From Pelagicoccus sp. SDUM812003 (GTDB taxonomy: Bacteria; Verrucomicrobiota; Verrucomicrobiia; Opitutales; Opitutaceae), in NCBI RefSeq assembly GCF_031127815.1, contig NZ_JARXHY010000011.1:124001-188000 (forward strand): DNA of 64,000 nt. Reading direction: 5' to 3'. Below are positions 9,890 through 18,836 of the stretch, in pieces (position 1 is the first letter of the stretch; every line of letters begins with the position of its first letter). The notes beneath the pieces are model-generated. The model had not been told where the DNA came from, made no database searches, and saw only the letters and a program-made list of their open reading frames with translations. The position numbers and the translations under genes were made by a program.

Positions 9890-12049
9890 ATGACGCCCAC
9901 TTCTTCACGCGTGGCGAAGAGAAGCGTTTTGGATGCGAAGAAATCCAAGATCGTTTTGCTGACGCTTGCAGCGTTTCTGCTGGCGCTTTTCGCTTGGGCG
10001 TATTGGTACCTCGCCGTGGGGCGGGCTCTCGATTTGGCTAGGTCCCAGCCCATTCGCATTGGCTATCAGCAGTCGCCTCCCTATCAGATCATCGCGTCCG
10101 ACGGGTCGCTGGGAGGGGTGGGACTGGACATCGTCGCGGAAGCGGCTCGCCGTCTTGGCATCGAGCTCGAGTGGGTTTACAGCCCGCTAGCTCCCGATGT
10201 GCACTTGCCGAGAGGTGACGTGGACATGTGGCCGATCGTGACCGACCTGCCGCATCGACGGGACGATTTCTACATCACCAAGCCGATCTACGAAAACGCC
10301 CTCGGGCTGCTCTACCTAGGAGAACGCTCCCTGCGGGATCCTCGGGAACTGAAAGGCAAACAGGTCGCGTATTACGATCGCGAGCCAGGCATCACTCTGG
10401 CGGCCAAGCTCCTGCCCGGCGTGGACTTGATGCCGCTGCCGAGTCACGAACAAGCCATCGATGCCGTCTTCAGCGGCGCAAGCTCAGCCGCGTTTCTTTG
10501 GAGCACCAAAACCAACTCCATCGATTTCAAGGCGGCGATCGATGAGTTCGGCAAGGGCGAAGCGTTCCAGTTCTACTATTTCCACGACGAGACCATCACC
10601 TGCGGCATCGCGGCCAGCTACCAGAGCCCAGCTGCCATGGCCGCCGCCGATCTGATCAGAGAGGAGATCGGCGACTTGGTGAAGGAGGGCTTCGTGCACG
10701 AGACCTATTTCAGGTACTTTCTGGATCCGGAAAACGAGATCAGCTCCTACTTCCTGGTGCACCAGCTCGAGCGACGCACCCTTGGTCAGAGCGTCGCGAT
10801 AGGGGTGTTGTTCGTCGCTTTGGCGGCCTTGCTTGTCATGTCGATCAAGCTGAGGCGCTCACGCGAAGCGGCGCGGGCGGCGAGCGCCGCCAAGAGCGAG
10901 TTTCTCGCGGTGATGAGCCACGAGTTTCGCACTCCGCTCAATGGCATCATGGGCATGGCTCAAGTGGCCAAGCTGGGAGAGCTCGACCCGGAGCAGGAGG
11001 AGGTGTTCGACGTGATTCTGCAGTCATCCGAGTCCATGCTCACGCTGGTAAACGACGTGCTCGATCTCTCGAAGATCGAGGCAGGCAAGATTGAGCTGGA
11101 GCCGGTTCCCATGAACCTGCAGAGCTTGTTCAACACGACGGTAGGTTTTTTCGATTTCCTGGCTCGGCGCAAGGGCATCGAATTCAGCGCCGTCATCGAT
11201 CCGAGCTGCCCGATCCACTTCATAGGCGACGAAGCCCGCCTGAGGCAGATCTTGTTCAACCTCGTGGGAAACGCAGTCAAGTTCACTTCGAAAGGCGGGG
11301 TTTATGTCACCGCGAGTTCGATACGAACGGAGAATGGAGAGTTGCTGGTGATCGAGGTGCGCGACACCGGCATCGGCATCGAAAAGACGCGCTACGAGGA
11401 GATCTTCGAAACCTTCACCCAAGGGGATAGTTCGCACTCGCGCAAGTTTGATGGCACTGGGCTTGGGTTGGCGATTTCGCGAAAGCTCGCTCGCTTGATG
11501 AGCGGCGACATTTTCGTGGAAAGCAGCCTTGGGGAAGGCTCCGTATTCAGCGTGGCCCTACCGCTTGCCCTTGATTCGAGGAGAGGTGAGGATAGCGCTC
11601 AGTCGGAATCGGAATCGGCGTTTTCTCGAAACCTCTCTTCGGAGGAGCGTCGCATTCCCTCGGTGCGAAAGGTCTTGGTGGTGGACGATAACCAAATCAA
11701 CTTGAAGACCTGCTGCGCCATTTTGGAAAAGCTCGGCATCGAGACGGAGCGGGCTGCCGACGGGGTGGAAGCGGTGGAGCGCTACGAGGTTGGCCGCTTC
11801 GACGTGGTGCTCATGGATCTGCAAATGCCGCATATGGATGGATGGGAAGCTACCCGAGCGATTCGCCGAAAGGAGGACGGTCTGGGCCGCACGCCTATCA
11901 TCGCCCTCACCGCGCATACTCTGCAGCGGCAGACCATCGACCGCCTAGAGCGGGAGATGGATGGCTACTTGACCAAGCCAATCGAGATCCGCCTCCTAGC
12001 GCGGACCTTGGAGAGCATTCGCTCCACCGAGCGTCTCGAGGAGCGCTAG
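9890..12049 (+). CDS. Hybrid sensor histidine kinase with periplasmic SBP_bac_3 sensor and receiver
   Basis: 719 residues. Membrane segment at about 20-42; periplasmic solute-binding domain of the SBP_bac_3 type at about 50-290 ([29 protein letters not shown]); second membrane segment at about 300-320. HisKA follows with phospho-acceptor His344 ([11 protein letters not shown]). The HATPase_c domain has [17 protein letters not shown] and GTGLGLAI, and a C-terminal receiver has Asp643 ([12 protein letters not shown]). The layout resembles BvgS/EvgS-type kinases, though with one sensor domain and no Hpt domain. It probably senses a small amino-acid-like ligand. No dedicated response regulator is adjacent, so the output partner is unknown. 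It lies 166 nt after ftsZ and is probably a separate unit. Confidence 0.9.
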
Positions 12050-12094
12050 GCCTTCGCTGAAACCGCCCCACGCTTCCGAAGGTGGCCACGGGCG

Positions 12095-12388
12095 TCACTC
12101 GCAATAGAGCTTACGCAAGGTGGCGATGATGGTTTCGATCTCTGGCGAATCGAGGCGATAGTAGATCGTCTGCTGCTCCCGGCGAGTGCTCACCAAAGCC
12201 TGCTCGCGCAGCTTCGCTAAATGTTGAGAGAGGGCGGACTGGCTGAGCTGCACCTCGGTCGCCAGCTCGTTCACGCTGACCTCTCCCTCGCCCAAGCGGC
12301 AAAGGATGGCGAGCCGTTTGGGGTTGGCCATGGCCTTTAGGGTATCTACCGCGGTCATTAGGGCCTCTATCTCTTGTTCCTTGGGCAT
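12095..12388 (-). CDS. ArsR-family repressor, persulfide-sensor (BigR/SqrR/YgaV) type
   Basis: A 97-residue winged-helix protein: DTLKAMANPKRLAILCRL, helix-turn-helix VNELATEVQLSQSALSQHL, then the wing (STRREQQTIYYRL). Two cysteines stand out: one in LAILCRL and one in the C-terminal LYCE. Counted from an alternative upstream ATG (12421) they are Cys41 and Cys107. This cysteine pair and the LYC ending are features of the BigR/SqrR/YgaV group, which release DNA when the pair forms a polysulfide link. No ArsR arsenic/metal CVC motif is present. The 12388 start gives the usual length; 12421 is the alternative. It is divergent from the DUF2892 gene across two operator-like repeats, so autoregulation is likely. 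The substrate class is inferred from the cysteines and context. Confidence 0.85.
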   Translation of the reverse strand: MPKEQEIEALMTAVDTLKAMANPKRLAILCRLGEGEVSVNELATEVQLSQSALSQHLAKLREQALVSTRREQQTIYYRLDSPEIETIIATLRKLYCE

Positions 12389-12440
12389 GATATTTCTCGG
12401 TGTTCGGCTAAGCTTTCTCATTGGCTGTCGTTTGTCAATA

Positions 12441-12485
12441 TTAGAGAAAACTAAAATAAAAACTTGCTAATTTAGAAAACACTAA
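12441..12485. promoter_or_regulatory. Twin TTAG-N6-CTAA inverted repeats, candidate operators
   Basis: Two 14-bp inverted repeats lie in the AT-rich divergent intergenic region: TTAGAGAAAACTAA at 12441-12454 and TTAGAAAACACTAA at 12472-12485. Their starts are 31 bp apart, about three helical turns, so dimers would bind the same DNA face. A TTGACA hexamer on the minus strand at 12432-12437 abuts the first repeat and could be the -35 element of the ArsR gene. TAAGG at 12488-12492 serves as ribosome binding site for the DUF2892 gene. Binding by the adjacent ArsR protein is inferred. Confidence 0.6.
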
Positions 12486-12500
12486 CATAAGGTTGTCGCC

Positions 12501-12704
12501 ATGAACATTGATCGATTCGTATTCGCATTCGCTGGCACCATGATTCTGCTCGGCTTGAGCTTGGGCATTTGGGTGCATCAGTACTGGCTCATTCTCCCCG
12601 CGTTCGTGGGGCTAAACATGTTTCAGGCCGCGTTCACCCGCGTTTGTCCGTTGGCTATGATCCTGAAGCGTTTCGGCATGAAATCGGGCTGCGCTTTCCA
12701 GTGA
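12501..12704 (+). CDS. DUF2892 small membrane protein (YgaP transmembrane-domain-like)
   Basis: 67 residues forming two hydrophobic helices with a short N-terminal NIDRFVFAF start and a cysteine in the RVCPLAMIL segment, the pattern of the DUF2892 family. The same fold forms the membrane anchor of E. coli YgaP, where it is fused to a rhodanese and encoded with the persulfide sensor YgaV. Here the rhodanese is a separate gene at the far end of the module. First gene of a plus-strand run behind the twin operators; TAAGG lies 8 nt before the ATG. Confidence 0.85.
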   Translation: MNIDRFVFAFAGTMILLGLSLGIWVHQYWLILPAFVGLNMFQAAFTRVCPLAMILKRFGMKSGCAFQ

Positions 12705-12744
12705 GCGTTTCGAGGGGCATAGGGAAATAAGGGAGTACGCTCGA

Positions 12745-12918
12745 ATGGCACGCTACTTAATCAGCATCGGCGTCGGGCTTCTTGCGGGAGGCGTCATGGG
12801 ATACTTCGGGCAATGCAGCTCGGGAACCTGTCCGCTCACCTCGACCTGGTGGCGCGGCGCCCTTTACGGAGGCGTGTTAGGCACGCTTTTCGCCTTGAGC
12901 AGCGGCGACCTCGGATAG
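12745..12918 (+). CDS. DUF6132-type mini membrane protein
   Basis: A 57-residue ORF, ATG at 12745 and TAG at 12916-12918, preceded by GGGAG at 12731-12735. It has an N-terminal hydrophobic helix (LISIGVGLLAGGVMGYF), a central CSSGTCPLTSTWWRG loop with two cysteines, and a second helix (ALYGGVLGTLFAL). The C-x4-C-PLTS...WRGALYG pattern matches what I recall of DUF6132, a family of unknown function often found beside rhodanese and DUF2892 genes. The paired cysteines facing a membrane loop suggest a redox or sulfur role, which is inference. It lies 40 nt after the DUF2892 gene and 45 nt before the RND gene. Confidence 0.78.
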   Translation: MARYLISIGVGLLAGGVMGYFGQCSSGTCPLTSTWWRGALYGGVLGTLFALSSGDLG

Positions 12919-12963
12919 CCGTCGTTTCAGTTGAGAATCAATTTAGGGATCAGACTTGGACTT

Positions 12964-15609
12964 ATGAAAAACGCTTTTATCGAAATCGCGCTGAAGCATC
13001 CGAAAGGGGCTTTCGGGGTCTCCATCGCAGTGGCCACGCTCTTGCTCGCTTTGGTGGCCTGGCCGACAGTGTTTCCCGACCGGGCCATGGGACTGAACCC
13101 TGCCACGGTGGACACCGATCCGGAGAATATGCTTTCTGCCGACGAGCCTGCTCGGGTGACGCATAATCAGCTCAAGGCTACCTTTGGCCTGAAGGATATG
13201 CTTGTGGTGGGAGTGACCGCAGACCAGGAGGAAAACGGAGTTTTCAATCCCCGCACGCTAGCGGATGTGCATGCCTTGGTCGAGGCGGCGGAGTCGCTGC
13301 AGTGGGAAACGGATAGCGGCGTGTCGGGCGTAGTGAGGGCGGACATCATCGCTCCTTCGACCGTCGACGCCATCGAGCAGGCTGGGCTGGGTTCGGTGAG
13401 CTTTCGCTGGCTCATGCCGGAACCGCCCCAGAGCGACGAAGAGGCTATCGCCGTGGCCAATGCGGCGGCTCGTCTCCCGATGTACGACGGCTCCATGGTC
13501 TCGGAAGACCGCAAGGCCCTGGCTCTGTATTTTCCGCTCACGGAGAAAAGCGCTAGCTACCGGGTAGCGGAGGAGCTGAAGTCGGTTATCGCCGGCTTCG
13601 GTGGGCAGGACCACTATTACATCGCGGGGCTTCCGGTCGCTCAGGATCAGTTTGGCAAGGAGATGTTCGTTCAGATGGCGATCTCCGCTCCCATGGCCAT
13701 GGCGCTGATATTCGTGCTCATGTGGTTGTTCTTCCGCAACCTCACGCTGATCGTCTCGCCGATGATCGTAGCCATGCTTTCGGTGATCGTGTCGATGGGG
13801 CTGCTGGTGGCTACGGGCAATACCATCCATATCATGAGTTCCATGATCCCCATCTTCATCATGCCCATCGCGGTTTTGGACGCAGTGCACATCCTCTCGG
13901 ACTTTTTCGACAAGTATCCAATTTATAAAGACAGGAGACGGGCGATCAAGGAGACGGTGGGCGAGCTGTGGAGCCCCATGCTTTTCACCTCGATCACTAC
14001 GAGCGTAGGCTTTGCATCCCTCGCTCTGACGCCGATCCCACCGGTGCAAGTGTTTGGCTTGTTCGTAGCAGTCGGCGCCTTTGCCGCTTGGGTGTTCACC
14101 ATCCTGCTGATGCCGGCCTACGTGATGTTGCTTCCCGAAAAAGCGCTGGAAAACTTCGGTTCCGCCGAGGCGGCCAGTGGCGAGGAAAACGGTATCCTTT
14201 CGCGCCTGCTTCGCTTCACCGGCCGTGTTTCCTTCGCCAAGGCGAAGCTGGTGGCGATCGTCGCCGCCGCGTTGGTGGTTTTTTCAGGCTTTGGCATCAG
14301 TCGAATCGTCATCAACGACAACCCGGTCAAGTGGTTCGAGCCGAGCCACGAGATCCGCATCGCGGATACGGTGATGAACGATCGTCTGGCAGGCACTTAC
14401 ATGGCGTATCTCGCTTTCGAAGCTCCGGCCCTTACGAAATCAGGTTTCGCCGAACCGGTACTGGCGGCGGCCACCGGCTTGCAGGATTCCGCCCGCTCCG
14501 CTCTCGAAGTACGGCTCGCTGAGATCGACTACGACAGCTTTGACGACGGAGCCTTCATCGACTTGCAGGACTGGCTTTACGATCAGCAGGATGCTGCCGA
14601 GAGCGATTCGGCCTGGGAGGCATGGGATCGCGTGGCCCAGACCATGGAGGAACGCTGGTCCGCAAGCGCCTATTTCAAGCAGCCGGAGGCTCTGCAAGCC
14701 ATAGAGGCTTTAGAGGCGAACATTTTGAGCAACCCCCATGTGGGCAAGGTGGTTGGTCTTCCGGAAGTGACTAAGACTTTGCATCGCGAGCTCTTTGAAG
14801 GGGACGAGGAGCGTTACCGAATTCCGGATACATCCAATGCGGTCGCTCAAAGCTTGATGACTTACGAGAGCAGCCACCGCCCGCAGGACCTCTGGCATTT
14901 CGTGACACCCGACTATCGCCAGGCGGTCTTGTGGATACAGCTCAACAGCGGAGACAACGTCGACATGAGCGGATTGGTGGATCAGGTAAAAGCGTACCTC
15001 GCTGAAAATCCGCTGCCTGGCGAGGTATCCACGGATTGGTTTGGTCTGACCTACATCAACGTCATTTGGCAGGAGCAGATGGTAGCGGGTATGATGAACG
15101 CTTTCTTGGGAAGCTTTGTGACGGTGCTCATTCTGATGATCATCCTGTTCCGTTCCTTCTGGTGGGGCTTGCTTTCCATGGTGCCTTTAGCCCTGACCAT
15201 TTTGGTCATGTACGGCATCATAGGGTGGATCGGAAAGGACTATGACATGCCGGTCGCGGTGCTTTCATCGCTTTCGCTGGGGCTCGCGGTCGACTATGCC
15301 ATTCACTTCATCGCCCGTTCCCGTGAGGCCTATCGTCAAACGGGAGATTGGAAGGAAGCGATGGATATCGCCTTTGGCGATCCCGCCCGCGCCATCGCTC
15401 GAAATATCATCGTCATCGGCCTTGGCTTCTCGCCTCTGCTGCTGGCTCCGCTGGTGCCGTATCAGACGGTGGGCGTATTGATCTCTTCGATACTCATTCT
15501 CGCTGGCCTGACGACACTTGTCCTGCTGCCGGCCCTGATTCACCTGCTTCCCTTGGATAGAAAAGGATCTCCCAGCAAGCGTGAGGAGCCTGTGAAAGTG
15601 GCATCCTGA
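12964..15609 (+). CDS. MMPL/RND-superfamily exporter
   Basis: 881 residues. Two repeats, each with one membrane helix, a periplasmic domain and a block of five helices, the MMPL/HpnN-like RND plan. Helix 1 is at about residues 18-37. First block: AMALIFVLMWLFFRN through LLMPAYVMLLP, with the sterol-sensing-like segment PIFIMPIAVLDAVHILSDFF. The second half repeats it with SSLSLGLAVDYAIHFIARS; the Asp in the latter is at the proton-relay position typical of the family. Such proteins move lipids or other hydrophobic molecules out of the inner membrane. ATG 12964 is preferred over TTG 12931. A LolA-like protein and a barrel follow directly, suggesting one trans-envelope route. Confidence 0.88.
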   Translation: MKNAFIEIALKHPKGAFGVSIAVATLLLALVAWPTVFPDRAMGLNPATVDTDPENMLSADEPARVTHNQLKATFGLKDMLVVGVTADQEENGVFNPRTLADVHALVEAAESLQWETDSGVSGVVRADIIAPSTVDAIEQAGLGSVSFRWLMPEPPQSDEEAIAVANAAARLPMYDGSMVSEDRKALALYFPLTEKSASYRVAEELKSVIAGFGGQDHYYIAGLPVAQDQFGKEMFVQMAISAPMAMALIFVLMWLFFRNLTLIVSPMIVAMLSVIVSMGLLVATGNTIHIMSSMIPIFIMPIAVLDAVHILSDFFDKYPIYKDRRRAIKETVGELWSPMLFTSITTSVGFASLALTPIPPVQVFGLFVAVGAFAAWVFTILLMPAYVMLLPEKALENFGSAEAASGEENGILSRLLRFTGRVSFAKAKLVAIVAAALVVFSGFGISRIVINDNPVKWFEPSHEIRIADTVMNDRLAGTYMAYLAFEAPALTKSGFAEPVLAAATGLQDSARSALEVRLAEIDYDSFDDGAFIDLQDWLYDQQDAAESDSAWEAWDRVAQTMEERWSASAYFKQPEALQAIEALEANILSNPHVGKVVGLPEVTKTLHRELFEGDEERYRIPDTSNAVAQSLMTYESSHRPQDLWHFVTPDYRQAVLWIQLNSGDNVDMSGLVDQVKAYLAENPLPGEVSTDWFGLTYINVIWQEQMVAGMMNAFLGSFVTVLILMIILFRSFWWGLLSMVPLALTILVMYGIIGWIGKDYDMPVAVLSSLSLGLAVDYAIHFIARSREAYRQTGDWKEAMDIAFGDPARAIARNIIVIGLGFSPLLLAPLVPYQTVGVLISSILILAGLTTLVLLPALIHLLPLDRKGSPSKREEPVKVAS

Positions 15610-15671
15610 CATCTTCGCCCGGCACGAGGCGCTTCGCTTCAACAACTAAATTCTCAAACAAGGAAATCCAC

Positions 15672-16460
15672 ATGAACTACCAAAAACAGATTCTTTCAGC
15701 AATCGCGGTCGTCTTCGCGCTCGCCTCTTCGCAGGCGATGGACGTGTCGGAAATCGTATCCAAAGCGAGTCAATCCGCGTATTACCAAGGCGAGGATGGA
15801 AAGGCGAAGTTGAGCATGACCATCACCGACGCTCAAGGACGTGAGCGGCAGCGAGAGCTGACGATTCTCCGTCGTAATGATGATACGGGAAACGGGGACC
15901 AGAAGTTCTACGTGTATTTCGAGCGTCCATCCGACGTGAAGGGAACCACCTTTCTGGTTTGGAAACAGGCTCAAGGCCCGGACGAGCGCTGGCTCTACCT
16001 GCCGGCTTTGGATTTGGTGAAGCGCATTGCCGCTTCCGACGAACGAACCAGTTTCGTAGGCTCGCACTACTTCTACGAAGACGTGTCCGGCCGATCACCG
16101 GTAGAGGATAATCACGAGCTCGTGGAGGAAACAGATGACTACTATGTAGTGAAAAGCGTTCCCAAAGACCCGAACTCGGTGGAATTCGCGTCCTACACAT
16201 CATGGATACACAAAGGCACTTTTCTGGCGGTGAAGATCGAATACGCGGACAAGTCAGGTTCGGTCTATCGGACTTATGAGGCCTTGGACGTGCAGCAGAT
16301 CGAAGGCTATTACACGGTGATGAAGGGTCGCATGACGGATCAGCGTATTGGAGGATTCACTACGCTGGAAGCGAAAGCGATCGACTACGACCTCGGCTTG
16401 GAGGACAGTTTGTTCCAGGAACGCAGTCTGCGCACACCCCCTCGTCGCGAATTGCGCTAG
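15672..16460 (+). CDS. LolA-like periplasmic outer-membrane lipoprotein-sorting protein
   Basis: 262 residues with a signal peptide (about 1-22, cleavage near SSQAM), followed by a half-barrel domain rich in beta strands. GKAKLSMTITDAQGRER, the FLVWKQAQGPDERWLYLP stretch and LVKRIAASDERTSFVGSHYFYEDVSGR are characteristic of the 'outer membrane lipoprotein-sorting protein' family (LolA_like). Known family members are periplasmic and structurally able to hold acyl chains. In this operon-like position, between an MMPL exporter and an outer-membrane barrel, a shuttle for a lipid or hydrophobic cargo is the simplest inference. It is not the housekeeping LolA, which is smaller. Gap to the upstream gene is 62 nt and to the downstream gene 24 nt. 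Confidence 0.82.
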   Translation: MNYQKQILSAIAVVFALASSQAMDVSEIVSKASQSAYYQGEDGKAKLSMTITDAQGRERQRELTILRRNDDTGNGDQKFYVYFERPSDVKGTTFLVWKQAQGPDERWLYLPALDLVKRIAASDERTSFVGSHYFYEDVSGRSPVEDNHELVEETDDYYVVKSVPKDPNSVEFASYTSWIHKGTFLAVKIEYADKSGSVYRTYEALDVQQIEGYYTVMKGRMTDQRIGGFTTLEAKAIDYDLGLEDSLFQERSLRTPPRRELR

Positions 16461-16484
16461 CTAAAGTGGGGATAGGATTTCGAT

Positions 16485-17879
16485 ATGAGTGAGACTGCGA
16501 AACAGATTGCTGCGGGAAAGTGGTTTCTCGTTCTCGGAACTCTGCTGGTCGCGAGCGGCAGCGTTTCCGCTGCGCCGCCTCCATTGCCGAGCGGTCTCGG
16601 AGGCGATGCGCCTCCTGCCTTGCCGTCAGGTTTGGGTGGGGAGGCCGCCTCCACCGCGGAAGTCGAGGAAAGCGACGACGAGGCGAATAAACTTCTTCCT
16701 TTCGAATTGCATGGTTTCGCGGAGCTTCGCGTTGGGGGGCGATTGCAGAACGCTCCCGGTTTTTCTGATTCGAGCCTTCGAGAGGCCAGACTGCAGCTTC
16801 AGATGGAAGAGTACCTGGGGGCTTCTTCCACTTTCAAGGCCGTGATGGATTTCGTGTATGACGATTTGGATCCGGATCGCGGCTTTGACTGGGAGGATGG
16901 AAGTGGTTGGCTAGATCCGCGAGAGCTGTGGCTAAGCACGAAGCCCGTTGACGCCGTCGACTTGAAGCTCGGTCGGCAAGTGGCGACCTGGGGAGTGGGG
17001 GATCTGCTCTTTATCAACGATCTCTTTCCCAAGGACTGGAACTCCTTTTTTCTCGGACGAGATCTGGAGTATTTGAAAGCGCCGCAGGATTCGCTCCGCG
17101 CCTCGTACTTTTCCGACTGGGTGAATCTCGATCTGGTCTACTCGCCTCGCTTTGAGCCGGACCGCTTCATCGATGGCCAGCGCCTCTCGTTTTGGAGCGA
17201 AGCGTCAGGCTCGCTCACGGAGCAAGCGGTACCGATGGACCCAGTGTATCCGGGAGGAACCTTCGACTCGGACGAGCTGCATCTCAGGCTTTCGCGCATC
17301 CTGGGTCGATTCGAGCTCGCCGCCTACGGCTACTGGGGCTATTGGAAGAGTCCTGCTGGAGTGGATACGGCCACGGGTAGAGCTCTTTTTCCGGAGCTGG
17401 AAGTATTTGGAGCTTCCGCTCGTGGGCCGATCGGCAGTGGTTTGCTGAGCGCGGAAATCGGGGCCTATGAAAGCGTCGATGATCCAGCGGGAGAGGATCC
17501 GTTCACGCGAAACAGCGAGTTGCGATTGCTGCTGGGATACGAGCGGGAATTGGGAAACGAGCTAACTGGCAGTGCGCAATACTATGTCGAACGCACGCGG
17601 GACTACGCCGCTGCGGATTCGGTCGCGGATCGCGATCGAGACCTCGTGACCCTTCGGCTTCGCAAGCAGCTTTGGCAGCAGACGCTCACGTTGAACGCTT
17701 TCGTCTTCTATAGTCCGTCACAAGAAGACCACTACACGCGCCTGTCCGCTAGCTGGAAGGCGAGCGACGAATGGCGTTGGGACGTGGGGGCGAATCTCTT
17801 CGGCGGCGAAGACTGGAGTTTCTTCGGTCAATTTGGACGAAACGAAAACCTGTACCTCGCTGCGCGCCGTTCCTTTTAA
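16485..17879 (+). CDS. DUF1302-like outer-membrane beta-barrel protein
   Basis: 464 residues with a signal peptide ending near SVSAAP, a Pro/Gly-rich tandem repeat, an acidic linker and then alternating beta strands to a terminal phenylalanine (RRSF), the usual barrel-assembly signal. LKLGRQVATWGVGDLLFINDLFPKD and the ELWLSTKP segment resemble DUF1302/alginate-export-like porins. Barrels of this kind commonly neighbour MMPL exporters. As third member after exporter and LolA-like protein it is the likely outer-membrane exit or docking component. The family call is moderate and the barrel call firm. It ends 17 nt before the convergent rhodanese-thioredoxin gene. Confidence 0.75.
   Translation: MSETAKQIAAGKWFLVLGTLLVASGSVSAAPPPLPSGLGGDAPPALPSGLGGEAASTAEVEESDDEANKLLPFELHGFAELRVGGRLQNAPGFSDSSLREARLQLQMEEYLGASSTFKAVMDFVYDDLDPDRGFDWEDGSGWLDPRELWLSTKPVDAVDLKLGRQVATWGVGDLLFINDLFPKDWNSFFLGRDLEYLKAPQDSLRASYFSDWVNLDLVYSPRFEPDRFIDGQRLSFWSEASGSLTEQAVPMDPVYPGGTFDSDELHLRLSRILGRFELAAYGYWGYWKSPAGVDTATGRALFPELEVFGASARGPIGSGLLSAEIGAYESVDDPAGEDPFTRNSELRLLLGYERELGNELTGSAQYYVERTRDYAAADSVADRDRDLVTLRLRKQLWQQTLTLNAFVFYSPSQEDHYTRLSASWKASDEWRWDVGANLFGGEDWSFFGQFGRNENLYLAARRSF
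16575..16646 (+). repeat. Two tandem 36-bp coding repeats (12-residue Pro/Gly unit)
   Basis: Copy 1 is 16575-16610 and copy 2 is 16611-16646. Each encodes PP-x-LPSGLGG-(D/E)-A directly after the signal peptide of the barrel protein. The codons differ at several third positions, so the repeat is conserved as protein rather than freshly duplicated DNA. It forms a flexible periplasmic N-terminal arm, perhaps for binding the partner LolA-like protein (inference). Confidence 0.8.
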
Positions 17880-17896
17880 GGAGCGACAAACGCCCG

Positions 17897-18598
17897 CTAT
17901 TCGATGGCGTCCAAAAAGGCTTGCAGCGGAGTGGCGCCAGTTTTTCTCCAGATCTCTTGGCCCTTATTCAGTATTACGAAAGTGGGTACAGGCGTTACTT
18001 CGTATTGGTCCATCAAGGCTTCGTTCGCGTCCGCGTCGATTTCCAGCACTTTGATTTGATCGGCGTGTTTCTCCTCAAGCTCTTGGATCACCGGTTTCAT
18101 GCGGCGGCAGGGCGAGCACCATTTCGAATTGAAGTTGAGTAGAACGTAGGGGTTCGCTGCGATGGCAGTCTCGAACTCCTCTTGCGAAATGGGTTGAGGA
18201 GCATCCGAAGCGGCGACAGTGTCCGGCACTTCTATCGGCAACTTGGCGCGTTGCCAAGCGGTGATGCCGCCGTTTAGGTTGACGATATTGGCAAAGCCCA
18301 TGCTGTTGAGCTGTTGGGCGGCTTGTGAGCTCCGAGCTCCAGATCTGCAGTAGAGAAGGATCGTTTTATCCTTCTGCAATCGCGATGCTTTGGCTGCGAA
18401 GTTCGGGTCGTAGAAATCGATTTCGCTAGCGTTGGGGACCTTCCCTTGAGCGATTTCCTGCGGGGTGCGCACATCCACCACGATAGCGTTTTCGTCCTGG
18501 GCCAACTCCGAGAAGCGTGGGGCGTCGACATTCTCGACTGCCGAATGGGCAGCGGTGGGGAGAAGGGCAGATAGGAATAATGATAAGCGGCGGAACAT
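17897..18598 (-). CDS. Exported rhodanese-thioredoxin fusion protein
   Basis: 233 residues. Signal peptide at about 1-19 (LFLSALLPTAAHSA). Rhodanese domain at about 25-122 with catalytic Cys84 in YCRSGARS, and VDVRTPQE at its start. Thioredoxin domain at about 135-233 with Cys161 and Cys164 in WCSPC and the cis-Pro loop TPVPTFVI. Rhodaneses carry persulfide sulfur on the active Cys, and thioredoxin can reduce it, so the fusion may relay sulfane sulfur or reduce persulfides in the periplasm. It is convergent with the barrel gene at 17 nt and closes the ArsR-exporter module. Whether the same regulator controls it cannot be seen; no TTAG-N6-CTAA repeat was noticed at its 5' side. Confidence 0.9.
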   Translation of the reverse strand: MFRRLSLFLSALLPTAAHSAVENVDAPRFSELAQDENAIVVDVRTPQEIAQGKVPNASEIDFYDPNFAAKASRLQKDKTILLYCRSGARSSQAAQQLNSMGFANIVNLNGGITAWQRAKLPIEVPDTVAASDAPQPISQEEFETAIAANPYVLLNFNSKWCSPCRRMKPVIQELEEKHADQIKVLEIDADANEALMDQYEVTPVPTFVILNKGQEIWRKTGATPLQAFLDAIE

Positions 18599-18836
18599 AA
18601 GCTGGCGGGCTGGAGCTGGTTTAGTTTGATTCGCGAAACCGACGTTTGGGGGCGATCGGGGCTGCTTTCGGAGACTTCGAAGTCACGGAAACGCGTTTAA
18701 GCCCGGTTTCAAAATGGAAATTGCATCGAAAAATTGCGATTCCGAATTTCCGGTAGAGGGATACGAGCAAGAAAAAGAGCGGAAAGGAGCCCTGGAGCCA
18801 CGATTCGCTCAAGGCCGAGACGCCGCTTAGGTCGGG

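Follow-up and report, generated by a model that had tools for sequence, protein, structure and literature searches.

Two kinds of described system come close to the locus analysed here. AmeABCD of Castellaniella defragrans clusters a resistance-nodulation-division (RND) pump of the HAE3 family with a LolA-superfamily periplasmic protein and a DUF1302 outer-membrane protein, and its deletion lowers monoterpene tolerance (PMC6394551, in the part available to us). The persulfide-sensing ArsR proteins BigR, SqrR and HlyU constitute cluster 4 of a sequence similarity network (SSN) and are marked by a cysteine pair, with one residue in helix 2 and the other in helix 5 (PMC10509353, section 4); according to the same source, HlyU lost DNA binding with glutathione persulfide (GSSH) but not with H2O2. 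In a stretch of 64,000 nucleotides from Pelagicoccus sp. SDUM812003 (contig NZ_JARXHY010000011.1, positions 124,001 to 188,000; hereafter the window), an ArsR gene of this second kind faces a run of genes for two mini membrane proteins (DUF2892 and DUF6132), an MMPL pump, a LolA-like carrier and an outer-membrane barrel. There is good support for interpreting this locus as a sulfur-linked trans-envelope export operon. That it represents, more specifically, a conserved and derepressible export unit for sulfur stress, with an HlyU/SqrR-type ArsR as its repressor, we regard as reasonably probable. Only the union of the two halves and its spread are new, because the export half and the regulator half each have precedents. 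A literature search over titles and abstract openings, with an open-access scope that may have missed sulfide:quinone papers, yielded no description of the combination. The original prediction, made from the DNA letters, had called it undescribed; this agrees with the search for the whole, but AmeABCD is a precedent for the export half.

The forward genes are separated by intergenic gaps of 40, 45, 62 and 24 nt (from DUF2892 to the barrel, in order), and the ArsR gene diverges from them across a 79-nt gap that holds both predicted operators (Table 1). Pfam confirms the DUF2892, DUF6132, MMPL and LolA-like genes that the original prediction had placed in one close run with gaps of 24-62 nt.

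Table 1. Features of the export locus and the support for each (window coordinates)
Feature	Position	Strand	Support
ArsR/SmtB repressor, HlyU/BigR/SqrR type	12095..12421	-	HTH_5 6e-14 (Pfam); C41 + C107
Operator 1, TTAG-N6-CTAA (predicted)	12441..12454		exact palindrome
Operator 2, TTAG-N6-CTAA (predicted)	12472..12485		exact palindrome, 31 bp from operator 1
DUF2892 (YgaP-like transmembrane) mini membrane protein with C49	12501..12704	+	PF11127 2.3e-9
DUF6132 mini membrane protein, CSSGTCP motif	12745..12918	+	PF19628 8.6e-24
MMPL/HAE3-like RND pump, 881 aa	12964..15609	+	PF03176 2.8e-35
LolA-like carrier, 262 aa, signal peptide by eye	15672..16460	+	PF17131 5.2e-56
Outer-membrane barrel related to DUF1302, 464 aa	16485..17879	+	AlphaFold2 model; DUF1302 in relatives
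Rhodanese-thioredoxin fusion, signal peptide by eye	17897..18598	-	PF00581 9.5e-20; PF00085 4.4e-23

The arrangement recurs far beyond Pelagicoccus. Among 288 genomes of the phylum, 26 carry a relative of the pump at E 1e-20 or better, the own genome included, and the best 80 of 572 confirmed pump places in a GTDB contig collection were chosen by similarity to the window pump. These 80 loci stem from Alpha- and Gammaproteobacteria, Thermodesulfobacteriota, Planctomycetota, Hydrogenedentota, Myxococcota and other groups; tblastn with the window proteins located LolA in 76, the barrel in 65, DUF2892 in 45 and ArsR in 27 of them. Together with 18 of the 19 other phylum genomes that have a strong pump match (the nineteenth match lies on a 3.3-kb contig) and without the distant paralogs L057 and L058, they form a set of 98 test loci. 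Profiles applied to about 7 kb upstream and 6 kb downstream of the pump detected LolA in 93, the barrel in 82, DUF2892 in 51 and ArsR in 36 of the 98, and absences are overcounted, since many contigs end inside these limits.

The control consisted of 40 loci (38 genomes) of a paralogous pump within one class, that of Hahella, which we picked mostly from the top of more than 100 places. Its query was the pump of a second cassette in the Pelagicoccus genome (G000:C3, L058:7414-12551), arranged TetR-MMPL-LolA-barrel. LolA was present in 35 control loci, DUF2892 and ArsR in one each and a barrel of the window type in none. By Fisher's test, test and control loci differ for DUF2892 (p 3.8e-9), ArsR (1.1e-5) and the barrel (4.6e-22), and not for LolA (p 0.15). 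LolA is thus common to both sets while the others are near-absent from the control; pump and LolA therefore constitute a general pair, whereas DUF2892, ArsR and the window-type barrel mark the clade of the window. The comparison is tilted toward the test set by profiles that were built from test loci and applied to both sets, and toward the control by its longer regions (15.0 kb on average, versus 12.2 kb); all p-values are optimistic, because loci of one clade are not independent. Within the Hahella class, a window-type pump occurs in 10/229 genomes. ArsR lies within 7 kb in six of these ten (five with the cysteine pair), DUF2892 in four and sulfide:quinone oxidoreductase (SQR) in three; two loci of this small sample are repeats of L065 and L116, and on three contigs the sequence stops shortly upstream of the pump.

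A gene order unique to the own genome is ruled out by this conserved order, which the neighbourhood search proposed in the original prediction retrieved across many phyla. That the genes are chance neighbours devoid of a common function is extremely improbable: such a view could draw on the convergent rhodanese-thioredoxin gene and on co-expression being deduced from gene order only, but the order recurs in many phyla and exceeds the control. The close versions in distantly related bacteria rather point to a widespread export route that may be tied to sulfide or persulfide stress. The rhodanese-thioredoxin gene itself, with YCRSGARS and WCSPC sites, probably forms a separate transcript outside the forward run; Pfam agrees with the fusion foreseen in the original prediction, and its export signal was judged by eye.

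Among additional occurrences, the pump is found in a Bathymodiolus symbiont and in Candidatus Electrothrix (L076, L119), which we take to be a methanotroph and a cable bacterium, respectively. MMPL-LolA-barrel arrangements were also seen in two metagenome-assembled genomes labelled archaeal (L135, L139); misbinning is likely for L139, because it groups with a gammaproteobacterial locus at support 100.

The ArsR protein has three HlyU-type activator sequences as its nearest PDB matches (E about 2.5e-25). As originally predicted, it displays a two-cysteine arrangement: C41 and C107, the sole cysteines of the protein, lie in the part aligned with HlyU and correspond to the helix 2/helix 5 pair of the persulfide cluster. 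With the NCBIfam BigR equivalog NF040642 it attains 76.9 bits versus a cut-off of 155; because this score is well below the cut-off, we class the protein as an ArsR of the persulfide-sensing type, yet not as a BigR ortholog by the NCBIfam test. Since HlyU, a named member of the family, is released by GSSH, derepression by persulfide may be expected for the window repressor as well, and by this analogy we infer that persulfide induces the run. Both sensor cysteines are kept in 23/36 ArsR genes near related pumps. In L235 and L218-L225, ArsR proteins next to envelope pumps have a pair of cysteines spaced four residues apart in the last helix and may represent another class of dithiol sensor.

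It is improbable, in our estimate, that the ArsR protein senses a different thiol-reactive signal, such as an organotin, an electrophile or a metalloid, and that the operon encodes a general toxicant pump. A title in the reference list of PMC10509353 calls ygaVP tributyltin-inducible, and the ArsR types of relatives with other cysteine sets would agree with such a role; C41/C107 and the operator format, however, match the persulfide cluster, whose HlyU gave no reaction with H2O2 (PMC10509353, in the part available to us), and some relatives have SQR, DUF302 and rhodanese neighbours.

The twin operators of the original prediction are both exact, and TTAG-N6-CTAA is counted twice in the window versus 0.15 expected, a number reached in 0/100 shuffles. 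The hlyO probe described in the accessible part of PMC10509353 contains TTAATTCAGACTAA, a near-identical format (TTAA-N6-CTAA) from which the window sites differ by one base in the fixed positions. Of the two published operator formats, HlyU and SqrR, the window ArsR thus has the HlyU-like one at its own promoter; ATTC-N8-GAAT, reported as a SqrR site (PMC9774250, likewise seen in part), is absent there. In 24 upstream regions (23 two-cysteine ArsR loci and the window), assessed with 300 Markov resamplings, TTAG-N6-CTAA occurs in 9/24 and twice in 6/24 (resampling means 0.1 and 0; of the two L071 sites included here, one falls within the ArsR frame). ATTC-N8-GAAT is present in 5/24 regions versus 0.14 by resampling, and either operator class, relaxed TTA form included, in 16/24 versus 1.0. 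Moreover, the recognition helix tracks the operator class: all nine TTAG loci are without RQ (mostly SQSALSQHL-like) and all five ATTC loci have RQA. This association (9:0 and 0:5; Fisher p 0.0005, which is optimistic as the loci are related) covers the 14/24 loci with an exact site and leaves out the 10 with neither, two of which have a relaxed TTA site. Such a co-change of helix and operator is what real repressor-site pairs would show.

The two mini membrane proteins carry conserved cysteines and keep characteristic company. C49 of DUF2892 is invariant in 52/52 aligned sequences, window included. DUF6132 was surveyed in 194 genomes of the phylum, with 35 matches at E 0.001, of which 32 lie above the cut-off; among the 30/35 loci that were inspected, which include the window and the L039 gene, 25 have DUF2892, thioredoxin, rhodanese or DUF302 within 1.5 kb (24/29 without the window). 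Five DUF6132-thioredoxin fusion frames occur among the 30 loci (L198-L202), and the fusion L039/L200 lies directly behind an MMPL-LolA pair. Separate thioredoxin and DUF6132 genes are adjacent in L203, and DUF302 adjoins DUF6132 in L195, L208 and L212. The Pelagicoccus genome holds one DUF6132 gene. In eight relatives from its family or order (L218-L225), a divergent ArsR gene, DUF2892 and DUF6132 are followed by an outer membrane efflux protein (TolC), a membrane fusion protein (MFP) and an AcrB-type pump, and six of the eight also have a rhodanese frame behind TolC-MFP-AcrB; the domains in L218 and a rhodanese in L225 were verified. The ArsR-DUF2892-DUF6132 head is thereby seen on two different pump types.

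The best NCBIfam model for the MMPL pump is TIGR00921 (HAE3), with 176 bits versus a cut-off of 352. Its membrane aspartates D306 (97/99 rows) and D777 (99/99) presumably represent the conserved Asp residues of transmembrane helices 4 and 10 in proton-driven RND/MMPL pumps; proton-driven transport is therefore likely. The carrier reaches 189.7 bits with PF17131, whose cut-off is 30, and 19.9 bits with the DUF1329 family PF07044, below 23.1; its family was aligned from the window protein, 34/71 full-length frames and one paralog. The carrier model (pLDDT, the predicted local distance difference test, 88) is nearest to 9tp6, LolA3 of P. gingivalis (Z 30.0, 232 residues, 1.6 Å), followed by 4z48, titled a DUF1329 protein (Z 27.9), and 3bk5, a LolA-like protein of Vibrio (Z 26.6). 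All three were also found by sequence; P. aeruginosa LolA follows at Z 12.9. The Pfam score and the modelled fold both place the carrier among LolA-like proteins. LolA3 has only very weak affinity for LolB, and the authors of the LolA3 study propose that it serves a different function (PMC13103446, in the part available to us).

The DUF1302-type barrel of the original prediction is upheld as to the fold and less clearly as to the family. The AlphaFold2 model is confident (pLDDT 87) and comprises about 18 long strands; among solved structures it comes closest to the OprD/Occ porins and the alginate exporter AlgE (Z about 22). The window protein itself has no Pfam match at 0.01, with DUF1302 at just E 0.053, but 34/45 members of its family (the window and 44/68 full-length frames, as aligned) match DUF1302 at 0.1 or better, the best at 3e-7. 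No sequence relative of the barrel was found in the PDB at E 1, by single sequence or by profile.

Several relatives link the cassette to sulfur genes. In the gammaproteobacterial loci L080, L116 and L133, ArsR, SQR and DUF2892 lie on one operator side and MMPL-LolA-barrel on the other, and the short intergenic region between both sides bears TTAG sites. For L083, an SQR of the same family, the match to the A. ferrooxidans structure has an E-value of about 1e-147. In L126, genes for ArsR, thioredoxin, a relative of CoA-disulfide reductase, DUF6132, MMPL, LolA and the barrel run in one direction; the L048 member of that reductase family bears a rhodanese domain. Across the 98 test loci the profiles detected SQR in 13, DUF302 in 12 and thioredoxin and CoA-disulfide reductase in 7 each (three of the latter full length), versus 1, 0, 1 and 1 of the 40 control loci, respectively. 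For DUF302 the difference has a Fisher p of 0.019.

These links bear on a tentative alternative, namely that the cassette is an HAE3-LolA-DUF1302-type exporter of hydrophobes or lipids with a cargo unrelated to sulfur, in which case persulfide would only indicate anoxic or sulfidic surroundings to the ArsR, and the task would be outer-membrane remodelling or expulsion of hydrophobic toxicants. Sources seen in part speak for it: AmeABCD, with three matching part types, protects against monoterpenes (PMC6394551), and Thalassolituus oleivorans growing on the n-C28 alkane produces an MMPL-LolA protein together with a predicted porin (PMC6304351). The LolA fold of the carrier and the TetR control of the second cassette are also consistent with this alternative, which we consider possible, if on the unlikely side. 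DUF2892 and ArsR are, however, near-absent from paralogous cassettes (1/40 each), SQR and the pump flank shared operators in three loci, and the DUF2892-DUF6132 head sits on two different pump types.

On balance we favour the export unit for sulfur stress and propose the following sequence of events. Reduced ArsR would bind both operators and block transcription; persulfides would then join C41 and C107 via a polysulfide bridge, so that the repressor leaves the DNA and the whole run is transcribed as a single unit. Driven by protons, the MMPL pump could lift a hydrophobic cargo out of the inner membrane, the LolA-like protein could ferry it through the periplasm, and the barrel may serve as the exit to the outside. 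DUF2892 and DUF6132, with conserved cysteines in each, might be small partners that handle sulfur or thiols. As the cargo, a hydrophobic compound that reactive sulfur produces or damages is most likely: zero-valent sulfur, organic polysulfanes or a modified lipid. S8 and organic polysulfanes would fit the lipid-type pocket and the SQR link, and a lipid or hydrophobic toxicant would fit AmeABCD and Thalassolituus. A stricter version, which we think doubtful, is a dedicated exporter of zero-valent sulfur: membrane-bound S8 or polysulfanes, derived from SQR where present, would pass through the MMPL pump, the LolA-like pocket and the barrel, persulfide would switch the system through the HlyU/SqrR-type repressor, and DUF2892 and DUF6132 would be membrane sulfur-handling subunits. 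Of the original prediction of one export route under a persulfide sensor, the conserved unit, the ArsR type and the operator formats stand; the persulfide response and the sulfur or lipid cargo we infer.

A number of observations weigh against an export unit for sulfur stress. A sigma-70 scan gave no site in front of the forward run; promoter and terminator signals in 12000-18800 had counts not above those of shuffles. The 98 loci were found by their likeness to the window pump, and 80 of them are the best of 572. In 62/98 cassettes no ArsR lies within 7 kb (partly from contig ends), DUF2892 is present in about half of the cassettes and a two-cysteine ArsR in a quarter. The remaining 13/36 ArsR proteins have other cysteine arrangements, with a mostly cysteine-rich C-terminus in the Verrucomicrobiota loci, and those of L218-L225 carry C-x3-C in the last helix and no C41/C107 pair. 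On the MMPL tree, DUF2892 changes at least 25 times, the two-cysteine ArsR 12 times and SQR 9 times, and no significant co-variation of two-cysteine ArsR and DUF2892 was detected (median p 0.22). In the own genome, TTAG-N6-CTAA occurs at ten places, two of them at the locus, and by eye the other eight lead to no sulfur gene; an SQR of the cassette-neighbour type was not found there. The excess of SQR over the control misses significance (p 0.067), as do those of thioredoxin and CoA-disulfide reductase (p 0.44 each). SQR as an obligate partner was rejected, being present in just 6/28 cassette genomes checked; these belong to 25/80 loci picked by us, three with SQR already beside the pump, and to three Verrucomicrobiota. 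Rhodanese-thioredoxin found no support as a conserved neighbour on the same thioredoxin-type counts.

The pump tree further suggests how Pelagicoccus came to possess the cassette. In the FastTree MMPL tree the window pairs with a single genome from its own order; both fall in a clade of 22 rows (support 100), 14 of which are alphaproteobacterial by record title. DUF2892 directly precedes the pump in 20/22 clade rows, window included, and among those rows the window alone has DUF6132 between the two. The window DUF2892 is 49-69% identical to that of the clade and about 41-49% to the same-family type; DUF6132 shares 58-75% with the same-family type, and the MMPL pump was found in none of the 20 same-family genomes of the phylum survey. 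The simplest reading would be that the cassette was gained from an alphaproteobacterium-like donor and that a local DUF6132 was inserted.

To our knowledge, the release of persulfide or zero-valent sulfur across two membranes is largely an open matter in bacteria, and the cassette, which occurs in methanotrophs, Desulfobacterales and marine alphaproteobacteria (by record title) and in Verrucomicrobiota (by the phylum search), offers a concrete candidate. It also provides a setting for DUF2892 and DUF6132, two orphan families of mini membrane proteins, and places a sensor on a pump-carrier-barrel architecture that has few known cargos.

Compared with known systems, the window shares with E. coli ygaVP an ArsR gene adjoining one for a DUF2892-bearing protein; unlike the window protein, YgaP has its own rhodanese, and no exporter is known to lie behind it. 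Mycobacterial MmpL-LppX/LprG lipid export likewise couples an MMPL pump to a LolA-fold carrier, and LprG turned up weakly in comparisons of the window carrier, but that system belongs to another envelope, is not known to include a barrel in the unit and transports a known lipid cargo. The export half of the run works like AmeABCD, yet AmeB is of the longer DUF1329 type, unlike the PF17131 carrier of the window, and the available part of PMC6394551 names no ArsR, DUF2892 or DUF6132. AmeC, a second periplasmic protein (COG4447), has no counterpart in the run, because gaps of 24-62 nt leave no room for such a gene. BigR, SqrR, HlyU and YgaV resemble the window ArsR in the helix 2/5 cysteine pair, the HlyU-like operator and, in relatives, the sulfur-gene neighbours; the targets named in the accessible parts of the respective papers are genes for sulfur oxidation, sulfur transport, toxin and biofilm, whereas in the window the ArsR faces an MMPL-LolA-barrel route (PMC10509353, PMC9774250, PMC9995734, PMC7315123).

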